Shown here: in pieces, positions 8,326-25,930 of the stretch
Position numbering within the stretch: position 1 is the stretch's first letter
How the letters are laid out: each line of letters begins with the position of its first letter
NCBI GenBank assembly: GCA_030765845.1
Contig: JAVCDJ010000148.1
Location: forward strand, 1-56,300
Direction: 5' to 3'
Length of the DNA: 56,300 bases
From: Candidatus Stygibacter australis
GTDB taxonomy: Bacteria; Cloacimonadota; Cloacimonadia; Cloacimonadales; TCS61
Position numbers and translations under genes: made by a program
The notes under the pieces: model-generated
What the model saw: only the letters and a program-made list of their open reading frames with translations
What the model was told of the DNA's origin: nothing
The model's database searches: none

Positions 8326-10554
8326 TTAGATCATTTCCCCAGCAAATTCTTCGCCATTACGTACAAAGATTGTTGTTTTCAAGCCTTCTGAAGATTCTTT
8401 TAGTTTTTCAATATAACCTGCTTCTTCACCTTCAGCAGGGATATTAAACCCCATAAAGACAATATTAGCATTGGCGCTGTTTTCCTGTATGATCTCAATT
8501 ACGGTTTTGTCTTTGGGTTTTATGATGATCTTAGTTTCTGCTTTAATGCGAACATCATTTATCATGTCATCCAGGCTCTTCAGCATGAACTGGCGATCTT
8601 CTTCTATCAAGATCACAGTATGGATAATAATTCTGGCATTTTTCCATTCACTGTTAAGACAGATCAGATGTGCCAAAAGCAGCATCAGATCTCCATTACT
8701 ATGTTTACCGCGCCACCAAATATCAATACGATCATGTCCACTTATTCCCGGCAGTTCATTTATCCTGACCAGCAATGAACTTTTCTGGATCCCCGTTATC
8801 ACTCTGATCGATCTAATTATTGAGATTAACCTGTCAGTTTTTTTTGACCAGCCAAACATTATCGTATTGGAATGCAATCCGGCAATACCATTTGATTGAG
8901 TAATATTGATAGTCCCGCTTTCGAACTCAGATACAACATTCACTTCATTAAAAGCAAGAATACCTGCATTCTCTAAAGTTTTGTTCATAATTGCAGTTTC
9001 TTCTTTAATATCATAAGTTCTGTCTTGCAAATCTCCTGTGATCATATTACAGACAGTGAGAATTCCACGTCGCTGATTTAAAGAATTTGCTAATTGTACC
9101 AAAGCCAGTCTTTTGCGTACATCTCCAGCAAAAACCAGAATATTGGGTCGCCAGTTACGGGGATCTTTCTCATGCGACTTCAGTTTGAGGAGAGCAAAAC
9201 GTGCTAATGTTCCCCAGAATCCTGCCCTGACATCTCCCCATTCTTTTTTCATAGAGCGCCTGCGCAATATCAAAAATAATATTATCTCAAAAGCAATTCC
9301 AACAAAACATGCCAGTGGACTGATAAGGAACATCACTGCCAGTGCTCCGATTGAACCTAAAAGAGAGATATACCAGGGAACTTTGATTTTAGGACGGTAA
9401 GATGCGTCTGCTGTAAGGCTCTCAAGAGCAGCACTGAGATTGATCATTACATAAAGCGTAAGGAATAATATTGATACGAATTGAGCAACCGCATTTAGTT
9501 CTTCCAGACTTACTGCAGCCAATGCAATTGCTCCACTGATCCAGGTGGAGATTGTTGGTTGACCGGTTTTGGATAGTTTAGCCAGGAATTTTGGTGCCAG
9601 ATGATCCTGAGACAGGGACTGCAATACCCGAGGACCTCCTAATACACTTCCAAATGCGGAGGATAATATTGCTCCAAATATTCCCGGAACAACCAGCCAG
9701 GAACCCAGAAAAGCTATCTTAGTCCAGGTTTCTACTCCAGTTGATGCCAGTTCTACATGACTCAATCTGCCAGTTACTGATAAAAATACTGGAACAAGTA
9801 AATAAATTATCAAACCAGTTATAACAGCGAGTAAAGTGCCTTTGGGAATAGATTTAATGGGGTTTTTGAGGTCACCACTCATCCCGATTCCGGCCGTGAA
9901 ACCAGTAACTGCCGGAAAGAATACGGCAAATATATACCAGAATCCCTTTGGTGCTGTTCTATACGTGGCAGTCATCTCTGGAGCATGAAGTTCATGTGTT
10001 AGAATGCCGATAATAAGTGCAACTATTGATATTCCCACGGCGATCAATATTGGGATTTGCAATTTGAGCACTAATCCCGCACTTTTCCCAGATAAAATTG
10101 TTATGATAATTATTGTTACAGCCGTGATCCCCTGCAGCATATAATGAGGCATTTCACCCCAGCCAGGATGCCAGAACATGGCAATTACTTCTGCTATCCC
10201 AAAGCTGTAAAATGTGATACTGAGCGTTCTACAGAGATAGAGTGGGATTCCAATTGCTCCCCCAAGTTCTAATCCCAGGCTTCGTGATATCATGTAATAT
10301 TCTCCACCTACACCAACACGCATATTTGTGGCAATTGAGGCAGCACTGAGAGCAGTGATAAATGTGATCGAGCTTGCCATTAGTACGATCAGCAAAGTTA
10401 AACCAAGACCCACATTACCCACTACCCAGCCAAAACGGAGATACATCACAAGACCCAGTATCGTGAGAACACTGGGGGTATAAACCCCTAAAAAAGTTCC
10501 AAATTTCTCTCCAACTGGATTAGGTATATCTTTTATATTTTCATTATTTTCCAT
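8326..10554 (-). CDS. SLC12/APC-superfamily cation-chloride cotransporter-like permease
   Basis: This protein of about 742 residues (from ATG 10554; a TTG at 10581 would add nine residues and neither start has a clear ribosome site) has about 12 membrane helices. They begin FGTFLGVYTPSVLTILGLVM, the signature region of SLC12-type transporters. GVGGEYYMISRSLG and a later FGSVLGGPRVLQ loop are also present. The last 260 residues form a soluble domain like the SLC12 C-terminus with a Usp-like fold. Eukaryotic members carry Na, K and Cl together; bacterial members are little studied. It probably moves ions or amino acids across the inner membrane. Confidence 0.85.
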   Translation of the reverse strand: MENNENIKDIPNPVGEKFGTFLGVYTPSVLTILGLVMYLRFGWVVGNVGLGLTLLIVLMASSITFITALSAASIATNMRVGVGGEYYMISRSLGLELGGAIGIPLYLCRTLSITFYSFGIAEVIAMFWHPGWGEMPHYMLQGITAVTIIIITILSGKSAGLVLKLQIPILIAVGISIVALIIGILTHELHAPEMTATYRTAPKGFWYIFAVFFPAVTGFTAGIGMSGDLKNPIKSIPKGTLLAVITGLIIYLLVPVFLSVTGRLSHVELASTGVETWTKIAFLGSWLVVPGIFGAILSSAFGSVLGGPRVLQSLSQDHLAPKFLAKLSKTGQPTISTWISGAIALAAVSLEELNAVAQFVSILFLTLYVMINLSAALESLTADASYRPKIKVPWYISLLGSIGALAVMFLISPLACFVGIAFEIILFLILRRRSMKKEWGDVRAGFWGTLARFALLKLKSHEKDPRNWRPNILVFAGDVRKRLALVQLANSLNQRRGILTVCNMITGDLQDRTYDIKEETAIMNKTLENAGILAFNEVNVVSEFESGTINITQSNGIAGLHSNTIMFGWSKKTDRLISIIRSIRVITGIQKSSLLVRINELPGISGHDRIDIWWRGKHSNGDLMLLLAHLICLNSEWKNARIIIHTVILIEEDRQFMLKSLDDMINDVRIKAETKIIIKPKDKTVIEIIQENSANANIVFMGFNIPAEGEEAGYIEKLKESSEGLKTTIFVRNGEEFAGEMI

Positions 10555-10666
10555 TGATTGAAATTTAAAATTGGGCAACAAAGTGTCAAATTAATCCTAA
10601 AGTAGTTAATATATATTATCTTTTATATAAATATGAGAAATATCTCACAAATGAGAGTATAGTTGA

Positions 10667-16049: not shown

Positions 16050-18608
16050 CTAAAATTGGACATCTTCGTCTTCTGCTTCAGCGTGCATGGAGTTGAAATC
16101 ATCAGCACCATTAAATCCATGAGCAAAAATGACCTTATATTCGTTACCGGGAACTATCGCTCTATCATACATATCTCCCGAATTTAGAGGGATTGTGAAC
16201 CTCATCTCAGATGATCCACTCTCTTCATGGCCGAAAACCCTTCTCACGTTGTTCTCGCCACCTAATCCTAAATCTGCGGAATGCAATATTTCAGATACGC
16301 CAAAATCATCCCGGATATAAGTTATACCATTATCAACATATCCAATGATGAAGTTAGCATCCTGCATCTCTTCAGAGGGATCAAATCCTACTGCCAGCCA
16401 GCCTGTGGTAGGAGCTTCCAGCATGCATCTCAGAGAGTCACCCACAATCTTCCATTTGAAGGTGAAGCCACTCTTATAAACCACGTTAAATCCCAGAGTA
16501 TCATCGTCCAGACTGATATCACCACCTGTTGTAACTCCATTTTCTCCACCACCAGTTGTATTATCAACTGTAAAGGAAGAAAATCCTGCATTAGCATGCA
16601 TGGATGAAAAACTGTCATCATTACCATAAGCGAGGATCACGGGATAATTTTCATCCCAGTTAAGAGGTTTATCATAAGGATCACCACTATCGAGAGGCAT
16701 GGAAAAATAGATGAAGGTTTCACCTCCTGTTTCCAATCCTCCAGTGAAGTAAATATCTTCTGTTCCGCCATTATTAACATCAGCTGAATGGACAGTAGGT
16801 GTATTTCCCCAATCATCACGCAGATACCCGATTGAATCGTTTTCCACATAACCGATAATGAAATTTGCTCCCTGCATCACGTTTACCTGATCAAAACCGA
16901 TAGCAACCCAGCCATTAGTGGGTGCTGATACAACTACGTGAATTGTGTCAGGATCGACCAGCCAGTAATATTTCATGCCAATAGTTTCCAGAGATAAATA
17001 CAGTGTGGTATCAGGAAAGGTATGGGTATTTCCACCACCTCCACCGCCACCACCAGTAGTATTATCTACTGTGAAGCTGGAAAATTCTGCCCCAGTATGC
17101 ATGGCAGAAAAATCATCATCAAGACCATAAGCAAGAATTACAGGGTAGCTTTCATCCCAGGCCAGGGGTTTATCATAGGGATCACCACTATTCAGCGGCA
17201 TGGAAAAATAAATGAAGGTTTCTCCACCTGATTCCAATCCTCCTGTATGATAAATATCTTCTGTTCCACCATTAACTATATCTGAAGAATGGACTGAAGG
17301 TGTATTTCCCCAATCATCTCGCAAATAACCGATTGTATCATTTTCCACATAGCCAATGATGAAATTTGCGCCCTGCATCACATTATCCTGATCAAAGCCT
17401 ATCCCTACCCAGCCAGTTGTCGGAGCTGATACTAATACATGGATTGTGTCAGGATCTACCAGCCAGTAATAACTTATATCACCTTCTTTCAAAGAAAGAT
17501 ACTGGGTGGTATCAGGAAACGCTGTGGTATTTCCAGTGCCACCGCCACCAGTAGTATTATCAACTGTAAATGATGAAAATTCTGCTGCAGTATGCATAGA
17601 CATAAAGCTGTCCTCAGACCCGTAAGCGAGGATGATCGGATATGATTCATCCCAGGCCAGGGGTTTATCATAACTATCACCACTATCCAGGGGAATTGAG
17701 AAATAGATAATTGATTCTCCATTAGCTTCTATACCACCCATATTATATAGATCCGAAGTGCCACCCATACTCTCATCCGAAACATGAATTGTAGGTTCAC
17801 TTCCCCAGTCATCTCTGAAATAGCCAATAGAATCACTTTCTACATAGCCTATAATGAAATTGGCATTTTGCATCACGTTATCCTGATCAAAACCAATTCC
17901 AACCCAGCCGGTTGTAGGGGCAGTAACTACACAATAAAGTGTATCAGTATCTACCAGCCAATAGAATTTCATCCCGCTTGTTTCCAAATGCAGATATTGA
18001 GTAGTATCTGGCATTACTGATGTGTGACCATCTCCGCCATTTCCTCCACCAGTAGTAGATATAGTAATATTTGCATATCCAGTTGCTGAATGCATGGAAT
18101 CAAAATCATCATTATTTCCCCGCGCCAGTATTACAGGATAGGTTTGATCAATTTCCAGCACCTGATCATATTGATCTCCGGAGTTCAGAGGAATAGTAAA
18201 TTCCAGCTCGGATATTCCGCCACTTTCTGAAGCTGCGATCATAGTGATATTATCTTCACCATTAAGACTAATATCCGAAACATGAGTAGTGTTAGATATT
18301 CCCCAGTCGTCTCGCATGTAACCAGTTCCGTCACTAACATAGCCCATAATAAAGTTCCCGTTTTTCATTTGGGAACTTGGATTGATCCCTACACTTAACC
18401 AGCCAGAAGTATTTCCACTTAGAATGCAATGCAGATCAGTATCTTCAACTTTATATTTAAAGGTTACTCCTGCTGCGCTAACCTCCGAAAAGCCCAGACT
18501 ATCAATAATTACTTCGTCAGGACCCATGATCTCGTCACTTAGCCTGTTACAGCCAGAATAAAAGACCATTACAACTAATAATGAGAATATCAATATTTTG
18601 AATTTCAC
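16050..18608 (-). CDS. surface lipoprotein with five DOMON (predicted heme b) domains
   Basis: This 852-residue protein starts at a GTG with an AGGAGGGG site. It has a lipobox ending YSGC with Cys20. Five repeats of about 140-150 residues follow, joined by Gly/Thr-rich linkers. Each has the DOMON pattern GWVGIGFD-x4-MQ-x-ANFIIGYV, then RDDWG, then a GDPYDKPL-like segment. All five keep a Met in the M-x-x-x-NFI motif and a His in the S/A-M-H motif; in repeat 1 these are about Met81 and His173. Cellobiose dehydrogenase's DOMON cytochrome uses Met and His in similar positions. I infer a five-heme electron-transfer lipoprotein. Carbohydrate binding is the alternative. Confidence 0.82.
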   Translation of the reverse strand: MKFKILIFSLLVVMVFYSGCNRLSDEIMGPDEVIIDSLGFSEVSAAGVTFKYKVEDTDLHCILSGNTSGWLSVGINPSSQMKNGNFIMGYVSDGTGYMRDDWGISNTTHVSDISLNGEDNITMIAASESGGISELEFTIPLNSGDQYDQVLEIDQTYPVILARGNNDDFDSMHSATGYANITISTTGGGNGGDGHTSVMPDTTQYLHLETSGMKFYWLVDTDTLYCVVTAPTTGWVGIGFDQDNVMQNANFIIGYVESDSIGYFRDDWGSEPTIHVSDESMGGTSDLYNMGGIEANGESIIYFSIPLDSGDSYDKPLAWDESYPIILAYGSEDSFMSMHTAAEFSSFTVDNTTGGGGTGNTTAFPDTTQYLSLKEGDISYYWLVDPDTIHVLVSAPTTGWVGIGFDQDNVMQGANFIIGYVENDTIGYLRDDWGNTPSVHSSDIVNGGTEDIYHTGGLESGGETFIYFSMPLNSGDPYDKPLAWDESYPVILAYGLDDDFSAMHTGAEFSSFTVDNTTGGGGGGGGNTHTFPDTTLYLSLETIGMKYYWLVDPDTIHVVVSAPTNGWVAIGFDQVNVMQGANFIIGYVENDSIGYLRDDWGNTPTVHSADVNNGGTEDIYFTGGLETGGETFIYFSMPLDSGDPYDKPLNWDENYPVILAYGNDDSFSSMHANAGFSSFTVDNTTGGGENGVTTGGDISLDDDTLGFNVVYKSGFTFKWKIVGDSLRCMLEAPTTGWLAVGFDPSEEMQDANFIIGYVDNGITYIRDDFGVSEILHSADLGLGGENNVRRVFGHEESGSSEMRFTIPLNSGDMYDRAIVPGNEYKVIFAHGFNGADDFNSMHAEAEDEDVQF

Positions 18609-18620
18609 ATTCCCCTCCTA

Positions 18621-19379
18621 TTATTCCAGACGACGTTGAATGTTGAATCCTAATCTCAAATAGGAATCCTTATCTACACCAAAGCTTACTCTTCGGAAAC
18701 CCACATCATCTGAATTGCTCAGCAGGAAAATGAATTGATGAGCATAAGTATCCAATTTTATCCCAAATGCATAGGCATCTTCTGCTCCTATATATTGAGC
18801 AAGCCTGGCATCTGCTGTATCTCGATCCAAGACCGGATAATATTCACCTAAAAGACTGATATTGTCCACCAGTTCTAATGCGAACCCCAATCCTAAAACA
18901 AATCTCTCATTATAGCCATCGTAAGCTGTATTCAGAGTAGTTACAAATCTTTCAAGTATCTCTTCATTCTGGAGTGATAAATAGTAAAACATGTTACTTC
19001 TGGTAGGTTCAGGCTGACTCAATTCCTCATAAGAAAAATAGTCGATACCAAATTGCCCATAAACAGGAAAATCCTCAATGTCAATACGATATGCCAGGCC
19101 ATATATCTTTTCACTTTTACGCCGGCTATAAGAGATTTTTACTTCCGCTTTACGGTAGAATTGGTATCTGGCACTTAGATTGACATTCGCTCCCGCATCC
19201 ATACCCAGAAAATTATTCAAAGGATCATCAGTAATATCTCCATAAAACCGATGTCTGATCATGATCTCAAATTCTTTTGCCTTCAATCCTGAGGGATTGA
19301 TCAGATTGATCATGCTGAAATCGTATGCCAGTAGGGTTGAAACTATAAAGAGGAAAACAACGATGAACTTGAATCGCAT
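18621..19379 (-). CDS. DUF5777 family beta-barrel outer membrane protein
   Basis: This 252-residue protein has a signal peptide (ending near LLA-YDF). Strands follow with the family motifs EIMIRHRFYGD near residue 40, a FGIDYFSYEE region, and YAHQFIFLLSNS near residue 212. It ends RLGFNIQRRLE. DUF5777 proteins are predicted outer-membrane barrels that often sit near cytochrome or DOMON/YceI genes. It lies 12 bases before the DOMON gene and has a strong GGGAGGG site. I infer a porin-like sheath or anchor for the lipoprotein. Confidence 0.8.
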   Translation of the reverse strand: MRFKFIVVFLFIVSTLLAYDFSMINLINPSGLKAKEFEIMIRHRFYGDITDDPLNNFLGMDAGANVNLSARYQFYRKAEVKISYSRRKSEKIYGLAYRIDIEDFPVYGQFGIDYFSYEELSQPEPTRSNMFYYLSLQNEEILERFVTTLNTAYDGYNERFVLGLGFALELVDNISLLGEYYPVLDRDTADARLAQYIGAEDAYAFGIKLDTYAHQFIFLLSNSDDVGFRRVSFGVDKDSYLRLGFNIQRRLE

Positions 19380-19388
19380 TTTCCCTCC

Positions 19389-19724
19389 CTATTCAATTAC
19401 TAATTTTGCTGATTTCTTTCCTGTCTTATTGCAATTAGTACGAACCTTGATCTCATCTCCTGGCTTAGCATCTACGATTTTATAAAAAACTTCTCCAGTT
19501 TCCAGATTGTCCTGCTTTTCAATCATCTGTTCTACTACCTTCTCTCCATTAAGATAAACCAGGATTTCAAAGATAAAGTGTTTATCAATATCTTTTACTT
19601 TGTGTTCAAAATTCACGGTCAGAACAGAAGTTTCTTTATCGAAACTCAAATCAACTTTTGAAGCAGGATGTGCCAATAGTAAAGCACTCCCAACTAATAT
19701 TACTATAACCAATAAGTACTTCAT
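19389..19724 (-). CDS. small periplasmic Ig-like protein (SoxZ/desulfoferrodoxin-like fold)
   Basis: This 111-residue protein has a signal peptide cut near LLLAHPAS and a single beta-sandwich of about 90 residues. A DIDKHFIFEILVYLNGEKV segment is followed by AKPGDEIKVRTNCNKTGKK, which mirrors the fold shared by SoxZ and the desulfoferrodoxin iron domain. The iron-binding histidine set of desulfoferrodoxin is not complete (one Cys, two His visible), so it may have lost or changed metal binding. It lies nine bases before the DUF5777 gene in a common operon. Function inferred: periplasmic redox or scaffold partner. Confidence 0.5.
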   Translation of the reverse strand: MKYLLVIVILVGSALLLAHPASKVDLSFDKETSVLTVNFEHKVKDIDKHFIFEILVYLNGEKVVEQMIEKQDNLETGEVFYKIVDAKPGDEIKVRTNCNKTGKKSAKLVIE

Positions 19725-19827
19725 AACGCCTCCAGTAATTTAATTAATTCCCATACATTTTAAATATGATTAAAAATAATATAACTGGATTTGATGAATT
19801 TCTGTATTTTTTATAAAATAACCTGAT

Positions 19828-20061
19828 TCACATTTTTTTCTTTTTAAAATACATTGATTTTATCCAGCCAAAATTCAGGATAAGGTGAATTATTCCTACC
19901 AAAATAAAGATTGTTCCAGCCAGTTCATGCATTTCATACAAAAATTCCTCTCCCTGTATTGCAGAGGGGATCATTTTATAAAATACCAGTGATAATGCCG
20001 TAACCAAAAAAGCCAGAACCATAAAGATATTCACCACTTTTAACGCTTTGATTTTTTTCAT
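19828..20061 (-). CDS. DUF4405 membrane cytochrome-like protein
   Basis: This 77-residue protein has two membrane helices. A His in MHELAGTIF starts helix 2 and another appears in IIHLILNFGW, the usual axial heme ligands of the DUF4405 (flavinylation-associated cytochrome) family. A strong AAGGAGG site precedes the ATG. It is the first gene of the minus-strand set leading to the Ig-like, DUF5777 and DOMON genes; the 103-base gap to the next gene makes one transcript likely but not certain. It would form the inner-membrane end of an electron path. Confidence 0.75.
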   Translation of the reverse strand: MKKIKALKVVNIFMVLAFLVTALSLVFYKMIPSAIQGEEFLYEMHELAGTIFILVGIIHLILNFGWIKSMYFKKKKM

Positions 20062-20325: not shown

Positions 20326-23163
20326 TTACTTGAGCATCAACATTTTCTTAGTGACTGACCCTGCTGAAGTTGTTAGATTATAGTAATAAATTCCTGAGGA
20401 AACCTGGTTTTGCATATCATCAGTCCCATCCCACTGCAGGTTATAGGAACCTGCTGGCTGAATTTCAAATATCAGGTTCTTGATTTTTTGACCCTTTATA
20501 TTAAATATATTAAGTGAAGTAAATGAAGCCTCGGTGATAGTGTAATGAATTGTAGTTTGCGGATTAAAGGGATTTGGGAAGCAGGTTAGTTCAGTGATCT
20601 GTGGTAATTCATCTTCTGGAGCGGAATTCTGAGAGATCACGTCTTCGGCAATATAAGAATATTCAATTGTACCTGTACCCCCAAAAGTGTCAGTTACAAA
20701 CATGACTACATTATCATAATTTTCGTCATTATTGGGTAAAGTGATCTCACCATTAGCGAAATCATCGAGTTCCATTTCATATAATGCATAGGGAATATCA
20801 CCATTGAGCGAAACAAATCTTACATAATATTGCGAATAATCAGCATCACCCATAAAATTAACTCTCAGGCTGTTTTCCAGATTTGAGAAGGTTATATAAT
20901 TCACACTCCAATGCTGCATGGAATTAGTCTCTGAGGTGGGGTAGAAGGCTATATCGTCAATAGTTCCCATAGCATAATCACCAGTACCTACAGGATTATC
21001 ATTATAACCAAATCTTCCATCCATGAAGCCGGGGTCATTAATATAATTGGCAATTACCCAATTATTAAATACATCTTCTGCATTCACATCATCCCAGCCA
21101 GTGGTAATTAGAGCAGCATTTATGCCATCCATGCCATTTAATGGCTCCGCTACAAGGTTATGGATAATATTCACATCATCAAGGCAGTAATGTTCCCAGA
21201 GATAGATCATAAAAAGCCAGGTTTGGGGATAATCTGGACCCGCAGTCCACTGGATAAGGTTATTATCGGGATTCATGGTGAACATCACCATCCAGTAGGG
21301 ACTTACCCAGCCGGTAACCGTTTGAGCAAAACAGGAAAGACCTTCATTTACCCAGGTTTGCTCGTTTGAATCCATGGTATGATGAATAAGATGCTGGAAT
21401 TCATGAGCAATTGTGGAGAAGCAGTAGGAGCTGTTTATTCCTGAACCATGCGGGTTTTTATCGATATAGAGAACTTCCATATTATTGCTGTGAGTTCCTC
21501 CAGATATATCATTAGGGGCGAAAAATCCGTTAATATCCGCATCATCTATATCATATATCAGGATATTAACTTTTCCATTTTCGTCAATATCAGAAGGCAT
21601 CCCAAACATCTGGGTATCAAGTTCATAAATGCCATTATCAGGATCAGCAGCAGTAGAATCGTCAAACGCTCTTGCTACCAGTTCTACATCATTCGGTGTA
21701 ATATCAATATTCCATAAATCGTTATCTACATATACATTACAATATTCTCCCGAAATTTGACGGGTAGCAGTAATTTCCGTGTAACTATTATTATTAAAGT
21801 TATATGCCCAGAAATTCCTTTCTTCAAAAGTGCTTTCTTCCAAGGTAAAACTATACGTTTTTGTGGTTGAAGTGATATTAGAGATATTCATTACCATGTA
21901 ATCATATTCCGGTTCAAAAGCAGGTAAGGTTATTGATCCTTCGTTACCTGAAGCAACCAGATTAATAACTTCTGTAGCTCCGGAATTACTTACCATAAGG
22001 AGATTAACAATGAATTCTCCTGTATTTGCCGTAAAGCTGATATCCAGATCAACATCACCAGTTACAAATTTATAATAATCTGCCGCCCAGCCATTAACGG
22101 AGGCACTGCCACTTACAGGATAACTGTTATATGTATTTACACAGTGGAAGGTAGGCAGGTCAATAGTGGTATAATCACCCAGATAATTGGCATTTGTCCA
22201 TTGAGAGAAAATATAATTGAAAGGAGCTTGATAACCCAACTCTATCAGGGCATTCTGGACACCTGTGATGCCATTTGCCGTTTCAGCAACAATCTCAGAG
22301 ATAATATCATGTCCTCCATAATTTTCAGAAAGGAAGACGGTAAAGAGGTAAGTTTGGACATAGTCAGCAAATTCCTGGTCCCAGACTATCAGATTGTTGT
22401 CAGGCTGGTTGGGAAAATCCACGATTGGATCCGGATAACCATAAAGATACATAGCGTATTCAGAGCAACCTTCATTTACCCAGGTATCTTCATTGATATC
22501 CATACCCCAGTGGATCAGATGCTGCATTTCATGAGCCAGTACAGAAAGCCTGATGGGTGAAATGGGATTCAAGGGATTGCAGGTCATATAGATCATTTCG
22601 CATTCATTACTGTGACCTGGAGGATTCATTTGCTGAGCTTCTGCTTCCGTAACCTGATTATAGGCACTGAAATAGCCATCAAAGGAAGTTCCTTGAAAAC
22701 TCCCCAAAGCGGAATAAAAGATGATCATTTTGGGGTCATTATCAAGCTCATCTGGTACTGGACCAAAATACTCCGTATTAAGATCATAAATTCCCTGATC
22801 AGGAAATGCGATAGTGTGTTCTTCAAAATTAGCCAGGACAGTATCAACATCTACCTGAGTCATATTCACATTCCATTCGCTATCGGCAACGAAAATATAG
22901 CAATGTTCACCTACTGCCTGACAGGTTGACGGGGTTTGAATCCAGGCTGGTGGCATATCTGAAAAGTCCCAGCTCCAGAATACATCTGTATCACCAACCG
23001 AATAATCTCTGGTTTCTCGAGTTATATTTTGATGTTCGGGATTATTGAGAAATCTCTCAGTTTGACGGGTAATATCAGCTTGAAAGTCTGTAAATCCCTC
23101 AGCATTTGCATAAATCATACTAAAAGAAATAAACAGGGAAACAAAAATTAATAAGTACTTCAT
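20326..23163 (-). CDS. secreted double zinc metalloprotease (M30-like) with sorting tail
   Basis: This 945-residue protein has a signal peptide. Two successive modules each carry a zinc-protease motif: HEMQHLIH at residue 211 and HEFQHLIH near 588. In both, the helix is followed within about 13 residues by TWVNEG with the third-ligand Glu. This arrangement resembles hyicolysin-type (M30) peptidases. C-terminal features are FPNPFNPQTTI, SGIYYYN and the end KKMLMLK, the sorting tail. Both active sites look intact, so the duplication may give two proteases in one chain. Probable role: extracellular protein degradation. Confidence 0.82.
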   Translation of the reverse strand: MKYLLIFVSLFISFSMIYANAEGFTDFQADITRQTERFLNNPEHQNITRETRDYSVGDTDVFWSWDFSDMPPAWIQTPSTCQAVGEHCYIFVADSEWNVNMTQVDVDTVLANFEEHTIAFPDQGIYDLNTEYFGPVPDELDNDPKMIIFYSALGSFQGTSFDGYFSAYNQVTEAEAQQMNPPGHSNECEMIYMTCNPLNPISPIRLSVLAHEMQHLIHWGMDINEDTWVNEGCSEYAMYLYGYPDPIVDFPNQPDNNLIVWDQEFADYVQTYLFTVFLSENYGGHDIISEIVAETANGITGVQNALIELGYQAPFNYIFSQWTNANYLGDYTTIDLPTFHCVNTYNSYPVSGSASVNGWAADYYKFVTGDVDLDISFTANTGEFIVNLLMVSNSGATEVINLVASGNEGSITLPAFEPEYDYMVMNISNITSTTKTYSFTLEESTFEERNFWAYNFNNNSYTEITATRQISGEYCNVYVDNDLWNIDITPNDVELVARAFDDSTAADPDNGIYELDTQMFGMPSDIDENGKVNILIYDIDDADINGFFAPNDISGGTHSNNMEVLYIDKNPHGSGINSSYCFSTIAHEFQHLIHHTMDSNEQTWVNEGLSCFAQTVTGWVSPYWMVMFTMNPDNNLIQWTAGPDYPQTWLFMIYLWEHYCLDDVNIIHNLVAEPLNGMDGINAALITTGWDDVNAEDVFNNWVIANYINDPGFMDGRFGYNDNPVGTGDYAMGTIDDIAFYPTSETNSMQHWSVNYITFSNLENSLRVNFMGDADYSQYYVRFVSLNGDIPYALYEMELDDFANGEITLPNNDENYDNVVMFVTDTFGGTGTIEYSYIAEDVISQNSAPEDELPQITELTCFPNPFNPQTTIHYTITEASFTSLNIFNIKGQKIKNLIFEIQPAGSYNLQWDGTDDMQNQVSSGIYYYNLTTSAGSVTKKMLMLK

Positions 23164-23284: not shown

Positions 23285-25756
23285 TCATTTTTTGGAAACT
23301 TCTTCTTTAAGAGCTTGAATCTCATCTTTCAATTCTTTGATCCTGAATTCTCTGGCAATAAAGAGCTCGTGATAATGCCGCAGTTCCTGATTCTGCTTTT
23401 CCAGCTTTTCGGTTCTTTGCTGAACTAATTGCTCAAGATGGGTACGATGCTGTTCTAATTCTATTTCTTTTAGCTTGAATTCTGTGATGTCTTGAGAGAT
23501 TCCATAAATTTCAAAAATCTTTCCATTATCATTATATCGTGGAAATCCCTGTGTCACAATATGATGAATAGTATTATCTGGAAAATTGATTTTCAATTTA
23601 AGATTGTTAGGTACTCCTTCACGGCATTTTTTCGCACTTTCATCAAACATCTCCCAATCATCGGGATGAATTAGGTTTTTATGTTGGTCATAATTTGGTG
23701 CATTCTTAGTAGGATCTTGACCGAAGATGGTGAACATTTGCTTTGACCAGGTCAAATTTCCGGTTTTAATATTGTAGGTCCAATATCCGATATTAGCCAT
23801 ATCCTGAGCTGCAAGCAAAGTTTCATTTGTTTTCTTCAATTCATCTTCAACCTGCTTTCTTTCTGTAATATCAGAAAAAATCGAAAAAGCGCCGGATGGC
23901 TGGTCACTGTCATTTTCATATATTGGAGCAGAATTAACTGATAACCAGATTGTTTTTTCAGTACGACTATCAATAAGTCCGATTAAGATATTCTGGCAGT
24001 ATTTACCCTGACTTAGACTTAGGAATATTGGATCTTCTTCAATGGTAAAATCTGAACCATCTTCATGGAATGATTTCCATCTTCGAGGCTCTGGTTTTGT
24101 TCCTCTAATTTCATGCAAAGAGAAATTGAGAATTCTTTGAGCGGCTGGATTAGCATCAATTACTTCAGCATTTTGATTGAAGAACATCACACCTTCGGTG
24201 AGTGTGTCATACAGGCGATGATAATTTTCCTGACTTTTTATAAATTCCTTTTCTGCATTTTTCCGGGTTGTGATATCTGTGTTAAAACCTATAAAACGAT
24301 AGGGTTTTCCATTCTCATCCCAAAGTGCTTTTCCTCTACCAGTGATCCAACGGTAATATCCATCCTTGCATAGCATGCGAAAAGTTGATTTATATACTGT
24401 AATTTTACCCGACAAATATTCTTCAACTTTCTTGTGAGCTTCATCATAATCATCAGGATGAAGCTGGTCTTCCCAGGCATGAATTGTATATGGTAGTTCA
24501 TCTGGTTCATAGCCCAGCATTGTGGCAAAACGGTCGCTATGATAAGTGTAATCAGTCTTAAGATCCCAATCCCATAAGCCATCATTAGTGCCTTCCACAG
24601 CAAGCTTAAATCTTTCTTCACTGGCTTTTAATTTTTCTTCTGCCTTTTGCCGTTCAGTGATATCCCTTGCCAGTCCAAAATATACTATTTGACCCTGTAT
24701 CATACATTTTGAACCAGAAACTTCCACAGCTATCTGATGACCGTCTTTGTGAATATGAATAGTCTCAAAAATAACTGATTTTCCATCCTCAGTGTTAGCC
24801 CAGAAGTCAATGAATGCATCTATTGGGAAGTTTTTATCTACCTGGTTAATGGACATTGCCAAAAACTCTTCTTTGGAATATCCCAGCAGCTTACAGGCAT
24901 TTTCATTTACCTCAACAAATATTCCATTCTTATCAATAAGGAAAATGGCATCGGATGCCATTTCTATGAGATAACGATAGCGTTCTTCACTGGCAGCAAG
25001 TTTTAATTCAGCTAATTTCCTTAATGTAACATCTTGAATAACTCCCACAATTTTGATGGGTTGACCAGTTTCATTTTTATTAAGAATAGCTTTGGATATG
25101 ATTATTCTTGGTTCTATTTGATCAAGTGGTTGTATTTCAAATTCAAGGTCGTAAGGTATATCTTTTGAAATCAAATCTTCCAATGCCTGGTGTACATTCT
25201 CCCGATCGGGAATGCAATTCTCTACATATTCAGTAGTTATATCAACTTTTTCAAGTGGTATTCCATAGAGAGCTTTTGCTCCCACAGAAGCCCAGAATCT
25301 TTCTTTAATAATATCATATTCCCAATTACCTACGCTCCCTATTAGTTCTGCTGTTTCATGACGTAATTTAATTATTTCCAATTCTTCCTGCAACATCTTT
25401 TGCTGAGTAATATCCCTGCCAACCGCAAAATAATCTAATAATCTGCCATTCTGCTGAAACCTACCCTTGACTTTCCACTCTATCCATTTTATACCTTCTG
25501 CACTGTTAATCCGTTCTTGATGAGATGAATAGTTTTTCTTCTCAGATATTTTACTTAAAGAATCAATTGCTTTGTCACGGTCAGCTTCTACAATGAGTGA
25601 AAGGAAATTTGTGCCTTTTAGTTCTTTAAATGTTTTCCCAAATATCTTACAATAGGCATTATTGATGAAGCGGATTCTATAATCACGCTCAAATATAATG
25701 ATCAAATCTGAATGATTGTCTATAAAATACTTCAGCGTATCAATATGTTTTCTCAT
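23285..25756 (-). CDS. six-PAS sensor protein lacking an output domain
   Basis: Starting at ATG 25756 (GGGGTG site; a TTG upstream adds an unlikely hydrophobic prefix), the 823 residues hold six PAS/PAC units. The borders are marked by repeats such as AVGRDITQQK, VIQDVTLRKLAE, LARDITERQKAE, FNTDITTRKNAE, IFSDITERKQVE and GISQDITEFKLKE. A C-terminal coiled coil follows, closing with FIAREFRIKELKDEI, an ending common in PAS proteins of anaerobes. No His-kinase, HATPase, GGDEF or EAL domain is present. It may bind a partner through the coil or act as a sensor scaffold. Ligands unknown. Confidence 0.85.
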   Translation of the reverse strand: MRKHIDTLKYFIDNHSDLIIIFERDYRIRFINNAYCKIFGKTFKELKGTNFLSLIVEADRDKAIDSLSKISEKKNYSSHQERINSAEGIKWIEWKVKGRFQQNGRLLDYFAVGRDITQQKMLQEELEIIKLRHETAELIGSVGNWEYDIIKERFWASVGAKALYGIPLEKVDITTEYVENCIPDRENVHQALEDLISKDIPYDLEFEIQPLDQIEPRIIISKAILNKNETGQPIKIVGVIQDVTLRKLAELKLAASEERYRYLIEMASDAIFLIDKNGIFVEVNENACKLLGYSKEEFLAMSINQVDKNFPIDAFIDFWANTEDGKSVIFETIHIHKDGHQIAVEVSGSKCMIQGQIVYFGLARDITERQKAEEKLKASEERFKLAVEGTNDGLWDWDLKTDYTYHSDRFATMLGYEPDELPYTIHAWEDQLHPDDYDEAHKKVEEYLSGKITVYKSTFRMLCKDGYYRWITGRGKALWDENGKPYRFIGFNTDITTRKNAEKEFIKSQENYHRLYDTLTEGVMFFNQNAEVIDANPAAQRILNFSLHEIRGTKPEPRRWKSFHEDGSDFTIEEDPIFLSLSQGKYCQNILIGLIDSRTEKTIWLSVNSAPIYENDSDQPSGAFSIFSDITERKQVEDELKKTNETLLAAQDMANIGYWTYNIKTGNLTWSKQMFTIFGQDPTKNAPNYDQHKNLIHPDDWEMFDESAKKCREGVPNNLKLKINFPDNTIHHIVTQGFPRYNDNGKIFEIYGISQDITEFKLKEIELEQHRTHLEQLVQQRTEKLEKQNQELRHYHELFIAREFRIKELKDEIQALKEEVSKK

Positions 25757-25930
25757 TTTCACCCCATTTATTTTATAATTTATTATTGTCTTTCTCGCTT
25801 CCAATGTCAACACAAATATTAATAAAAAAAGTATCAAGGATTCCCTTTTTAAGATTGATTAGTTGAATTGTTTGACTATTTGTCACTACATTCATAATTA
25901 TTGTTTTGTAAAAAGAAAAAGGATATGATT

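Follow-up and report, generated by a model that had tools for sequence, protein, structure and literature searches.

A gene block for a putative b-type extracytosolic redox relay in Candidatus Stygibacter australis and other Cloacimonadota

Four consecutive minus-strand genes occupy positions 16050-20061 of the window analysed here, a 56,300-nucleotide stretch of the genome of Candidatus Stygibacter australis (phylum Cloacimonadota; assembly GCA_030765845.1, contig JAVCDJ010000148.1, positions 1 to 56,300). Their products, of 852, 252, 111 and 77 residues (P0001 to P0004), are a lipoprotein with five DOMON domains, a DUF5777 outer-membrane beta-barrel, an exported protein resembling superoxide reductase (SOR) and SoxZ, and a short DUF4405-like protein predicted to lie in the inner membrane. 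We propose, with confidence a little short of even, that this block encodes a b-type redox relay outside the cytosol, serving a metal centre and, by way of the DUF5777 and DOMON proteins, the cell surface. The proposal builds on gene linkage, residue conservation, predicted folds, co-distribution, and the lack of detectable genes for heme synthesis and cytochrome c assembly, and from these we infer heme and metal binding, the flow of electrons and its direction, the substrate, and the cellular location. An initial annotation of the window had placed the same four genes at these positions, as open reading frame coordinates and Pfam matches bear out, and had read them as an electron conduit of porin-cytochrome layout with b-type hemes; it was right on the parts and on the b-type idea, and too specific on the conduit. 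No described system of such a form was found.

DOMON domains with a conserved Met/His pair

The lipoprotein (P0001; 16050-18608, minus strand) carries the lipobox FYSGC, with its cysteine at position 20, and matches the Pfam DOMON model (PF03351) over five stretches with 295 bits against a cut-off of 32.7 (E 5.6e-89). One Met and one His had been noticed at matching places in every repeat, and this pairing holds throughout: Met81 and His173 in repeat 1 (18075-18479), Met246 and His339 in repeat 2 (17577-17987), Met411 and His504 in repeat 3 (17082-17492), Met578 and His671 in repeat 4 (16581-16991), and Met748 and His842 in repeat 5 (16068-16478), all on the minus strand, with spacings of 92, 93, 93, 93 and 94 residues. 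Gly-rich linkers of 28-34 residues join all five domains, so the protein is pictured as flexible beads on a string.

The positions equivalent to Met411, His440 and His504 are invariant in all 42 DOMON domains from phylum genomes that cover both ligand sites; His440, a third invariant histidine, was absent from the initial annotation. The Pfam model retrieved this in-phylum set, so its Met conservation is free of selection by the query. Beyond the phylum, the alignment places Met at the ligand site in 109 of 117 domains, a figure that is partly the product of selection because the Met was part of one of the three search patterns. Two of these cross-phylum domains (L125, L185) carry His in its place, and two flagged as having Glu there have Met directly adjacent. 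Three WOR-3 domains, each beside an intact copy, have jointly lost Trp400, Met411, His440 and the terminal His; the aligner misplaced the last of these, and C-terminal alignment puts Pro at that position. Both the conservation and its exceptions match what would be expected, at the level of sequence, of a heme pocket, and the domains are predicted heme binders. The WOR-3 copies form tandem genes in which the copy without these presumed pocket residues is the upstream one (L132:5294-5839, L138:5311-5859, L143:5316-5837).

An AF2 model of repeat 3 (pLDDT 94.3) was matched by Foldseek to the cytochrome domain of cellobiose dehydrogenase (1pl3, 1d7c and 1d7b; TM 0.72-0.75), as well as to pyranose dehydrogenase cytochrome b, ethylbenzene dehydrogenase gamma and CBM9 modules. 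Predicted fold and ligand conservation together support the assignment of these domains as putative cytochromes of the Met/His heme-b type. Elsewhere in the phylum, nine DOMON paralogs bear a sorting tail of the type IX secretion system (T9SS), which would place those proteins at the cell surface in those relatives. When P0001 and profiles of the DOMON, P0002 and P0003 families were searched against PDB sequences, nothing meaningful came back.

The small membrane protein, the SOR-like protein and the barrel

The 77-residue product (P0004; 19828-20061, minus strand), which Pfam matches and a family alignment mark as a candidate DUF4405-like mini b-type cytochrome, scores 26.4 bits against the DUF4405 model (PF14358; cut-off 26.7), and a relative at locus L133 clears the cut-off with 28.1 bits. 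Among 18 family members, 12 match DUF4405 (best E 5e-9) and 10 match Ni_hydr_CYTB; the likeness of the family to b561-type cytochromes is weak. Inspection of the sequence reveals two hydrophobic segments, taken as two transmembrane helices, the second of which bears His45 and His59, 14 residues apart (H-x13-H) and invariant in the 18 aligned relatives. In b-type cytochromes this spacing serves to stack two hemes along a single helix. The six transmembrane helices and four central histidines in one chain that characterise DUF4405 cytochromes are not found here. Its description as an inner-membrane, two-His DUF4405 protein is supported by the invariant histidines and by the relative above the cut-off, but P0004 taken alone is marginal and both histidines lie on a single helix.

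Upstream of the barrel gene lies that of the 111-residue exported protein (P0003; 19389-19724, minus strand), in whose 38-sequence alignment His19, His41, His49 and Cys98 are kept by every member. Each of the 38 has Ala, Gly or Cys just ahead of His19, as a signal-peptidase site would require, and mature P0003 is therefore predicted to start at His19. Its AF2 model (pLDDT 93) is a beta-sandwich for which Foldseek gives SoxZ the best E value (4e-4) and superoxide reductase 4d7p one of the highest TM values (0.64/0.73), with other Ig-like folds close. Desulfoferrodox (PF01880) is the commonest weak Pfam match in the family (11 of 38 members, best E 4.5e-4), the best examined member reaching 20.2 bits, below the cut-off of 22.2. 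In a profile comparison (hhalign, probability 76%), His49 and Cys98 fall on SOR ligands. P0003 is thus a candidate mononuclear metal protein with a probable metal site, in which, as a guess, the free N-terminal amine may take the place of the fourth SOR histidine. Its earlier reading as a periplasmic Ig-like protein captured the beta-sandwich fold but missed the probable His/Cys site. An ordinary superoxide reductase was considered and rejected, given the incomplete ligand set and the presence of an ordinary desulfoferrodoxin elsewhere in the genome. A divergent P0003 paralog (L102:25-429, on contig C235 of the same genome) sits beside ABC-transporter-permease-like genes, an arrangement repeated at L101 and L103.

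The 252-residue barrel (P0002; 18621-19379, minus strand) matches DUF5777 (PF19089) with 61.4 bits against a cut-off of 23.1 (E 9.9e-17), which, with the five DOMON stretches, confirms the lipoprotein and barrel pair of the initial annotation; among the papers searched, none that names DUF5777 was found. None of the four block proteins contains a CxxCH motif, in keeping with the earlier statement that c-type hemes are lacking.

A core pair and an outer module

The gaps between the genes, from P0004 to P0001, are 103, 9 and 12 bases, and a candidate terminator-like hairpin with a T run, picked up by a consensus scan, lies just 3' of the P0001 gene (16011-16031, minus strand). Because of the short gaps and this hairpin, at least the last three genes (P0003, P0002 and P0001) look like one operon. 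A promoter scan gave no excess over shuffled sequences.

In a sample of 125 Cloacimonadota genomes, DOMON proteins occur in 19, DUF5777 in 16, P0003 in 43 and P0004 in 44 (one marginal match left out). Every one of the 16 genomes with DUF5777 also has an adjacent DOMON gene and P0003, and 15 of them have P0004; four-gene blocks were found in G089, G083, G097 and G099, and other families show the order P0003-DUF5777-DOMON with one DOMON per protein. P0003 and P0004 occur together in 37 genomes (odds ratio 66, Fisher p 2e-18), and when same-contig cases are dropped, leaving the 22 genomes in which the two lie on different contigs, the association persists (odds ratio 39, p 5e-12), although these tests ignore shared ancestry and the incompleteness of the genomes. 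The neighbours of unlinked P0004 genes are housekeeping-like and uninformative for function. Two further genomes, G088 and G094, retain P0004 and P0003 intact together with a short chimeric frame in which the beginning of DUF5777 runs into the end of a DOMON (L084:5182-5367 and L104:6370-6573), which suggests the scars of two independent DUF5777-DOMON deletions, or else assembly error. Since P0003 and P0004 co-occur without DOMON, and DUF5777 and DOMON appear to have been lost as a unit in these two genomes, the block is composed of a core pair, P0004 and P0003, and an optional outer module, DUF5777 and DOMON. The search across the phylum thus shows the block to be a real unit, with a core of which the initial annotation was unaware.

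Relatives extend to other phyla. A cross-phylum scan, taking one genome per GTDB species, yielded 78 DOMON loci, of which 31 have DUF5777 in the same locus; 21 of these lie outside Cloacimonadota, in WOR-3, Fermentibacteria/Aegiribacteria, Hyd24-12, Coatesbacteria and proteobacterial bins. Many relatives have one DOMON only. P0003 is present as well at the WOR-3 loci L132, L138, L143 and L151, and at three of these a small protein with two transmembrane segments and the H-x13-H spacing comes before it. In ten Desulfobacterota-type loci (L144, L145, L148, L152, L156, L158, L171, L175, L176 and L182), a single-DOMON protein stands beside a COX1 heme-copper oxidase, accompanied in the one examined, L145, by DUF2231 and an SCO1-like protein. 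This is a respiratory setting for the same DOMON subfamily, whose putative b-type cytochrome may serve the COX1 oxidase there.

Around the block, in a source genome of 3.8 Mb that is about 95% complete, further minus-strand genes were observed. Upstream lie those of a 945-residue secreted protein whose two halves look like metallopeptidases (HEMQH, HEFQH) and which has a T9SS-type tail (20326-23163), and of an 850-residue protein with five PAS-type stretches and without a Pfam kinase or cyclase domain (23285-25837). At 8326-10581 the window encodes a bacterial protein resembling cation-chloride cotransporters, with AA_permease and SLC12 domains (E 2e-14).

The proposed relay, its alternatives and its meaning

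In the proposed relay, P0004 would oligomerise in the inner membrane, with His45 and His59 of several chains holding heme b scavenged from outside, and would pass electrons from the quinone pool or the cytosol to the periplasmic face, where it would exchange them with P0003. The N-terminal histidine of P0003, two further histidines and one cysteine would coordinate a redox metal, either Fe or Cu. Some species, this one among them, would have an extension in which DUF5777 and the Met/His DOMON cytochromes carry the relay to the outer membrane and the cell surface. There the DOMONs would act as one-electron carriers on flexible tethers, not as a rigid wire, and the relay would probably reduce an external or periplasmic oxidant such as Fe(III), Cu(II) or O2-derived species. 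The wider claim, that this is an undescribed envelope electron-transfer system built solely from cytochromes that hold heme b non-covalently and from an SOR-like metal enzyme with an N-terminal His, with scavenged heme loaded outside the cytosol, and that it lets lineages which can neither synthesise heme nor mature cytochrome c move electrons between the inner membrane and the cell surface, is one that we regard as possible but doubtful.

Several results, besides the limits of the Fisher tests, weigh against the relay. The top Foldseek match of the repeat 3 model is dopamine beta-hydroxylase, whose DOMON is not known to be a heme protein. Compared with the sequence of the cellobiose dehydrogenase cytochrome, in which Met65 and His163 were checked by position, the DOMON profile gave a non-significant match that aligned the methionines with each other but not the histidines; the likeness to that enzyme's heme ligands drawn by the initial annotation is therefore shown by sequence for the Met and not for the His, and the fold agrees. 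The SOR histidine of the CNxHG motif is replaced in all 38 P0003 relatives, leaving the His4Cys site incomplete, and P0004 is linked to the block in part of the phylum only. Finally, no terminal heme-synthesis enzyme was detected in the Stygibacter genome.

This last point, which the initial annotation had overlooked, holds for nearly the whole phylum: ferrochelatase was found in one of the 125 genomes, not this one, and AhbD at its cut-off in none (the best match here reaching 62 bits against 500). A cytochrome c assembly gene (Cytochrom_C_asm) was likewise detected in one genome, not this one, and cytochrome bd in none. Even so, the two heme-type proteins are found together. In Cloacimonadota, then, heme would be scavenged, because no known terminal enzyme was found, or else made by some unknown route. 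The same scarcity favours heme capture, in which the DOMON lipoprotein would bind environmental heme at the surface and pass it through the adjoining barrel to the periplasm of a heme auxotroph, its five repeated heme-type domains resembling heme-capture arrays. Yet the DOMON-DUF5777 pair also occurs in a ferrochelatase-bearing genome outside the phylum (L118, G125), and among Desulfobacterota-type genomes, where related DOMONs sit with COX1, two have AhbD above the cut-off; four WOR-3 genomes have AhbD-like proteins of 287-306 bits, below it. As the block also lacks an ABC importer, P0004 resembles cytochromes and not transporters, and the P0003-P0004 pair exists without DOMON, we think heme capture unlikely.

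A true porin-cytochrome-like conduit, in which the DUF5777 pore would hold a DOMON or P0003 so that electrons cross the outer membrane, strikes us as improbable too. It gains from the strict DUF5777-DOMON pairing in the phylum and its recurrence beyond, from the apparent loss of both in one deletion each in G088 and G094, and from the surface-sorting tails of some DOMON paralogs. However, the roughly 234 residues of mature P0002 suggest, from known barrels, about 12-14 strands and a pore too narrow to take a DOMON of 15 kDa, so that the barrel is probably too small for a conduit, and no redox protein able to fill it is evident. The DOMONs sit on Gly-rich linkers, and one DOMON is enough in many species. 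Of the porin-cytochrome layout first suggested, what survives is a conserved multi-gene block and some surface DOMONs. That the DOMONs instead bind a sugar or other ligand within a surface binding or adhesion system, as the CBM9 and dopamine beta-hydroxylase matches and the doubtful source of heme might suggest, is very unlikely given the invariant Met/His pair, the Met-to-His swaps, the joint loss of ligand residues, the cytochrome-like P0004 in the same gene row and the COX1 neighbourhood of relatives.

The closest working analogue of the proposed relay is the plant CYBDOM ferric reductase. In HYP1, a b561 core fused to a Met/His DOMON reduces ferric chelates (PMC10784544), and CYBDOM proteins share with the block a membrane b-type cytochrome and an extracytosolic Met/His DOMON, their electrons leaving to Fe(III) or Cu(II) (PMC10784544). 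There, however, the parts form one fused chain, whereas here they are separate genes that include a DUF4405-like protein with two transmembrane segments, a barrel and an SOR-like protein, in a two-membrane envelope. MtrCAB/Pcc conduits similarly encode inner-membrane, periplasmic, barrel and lipoprotein parts together, but membership in that group was rejected for want of c-type heme; the block has no CxxCH motif, no cytochrome c maturation was found in its genome, its barrel is small beside MtrB-type sheaths, and its single-heme b-type domains would sit on linkers. A published DOMON associated with extracellular electron transfer is a different protein, an MtrA-DOMON. Histidine-bearing transmembrane heme-b proteins are also known among the DUF4405/FezC cytochromes tied to flavinylation and ferrosomes, and a longer DUF4405 protein has been shown to bind heme b (PMC11334425); those have six transmembrane segments and four histidines, against two and two in P0004. 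P0003 shares its fold with superoxide reductase/desulfoferrodoxin and SoxZ, and its His and Cys positions resemble the SOR centre, but it is exported, is predicted to start at a histidine and lacks the last SOR histidine. The DOMON fold with Met and His is common to the cytochrome domain of fungal cellobiose dehydrogenase, which differs in its flavin domain from this bacterial lipoprotein array.

The electron conduits known from outer membranes are built on c-type cytochromes, for which both heme and maturation machinery are required. The block described here suggests that DOMON b-type cytochromes take their place in several uncultured phyla, perhaps with externally obtained heme. Roles that can be tested follow for DUF5777, for the short DUF4405 variety and for a new family of SOR-like metal proteins, and the block may serve as a marker of extracytosolic redox activity where searches for CxxCH motifs find nothing.

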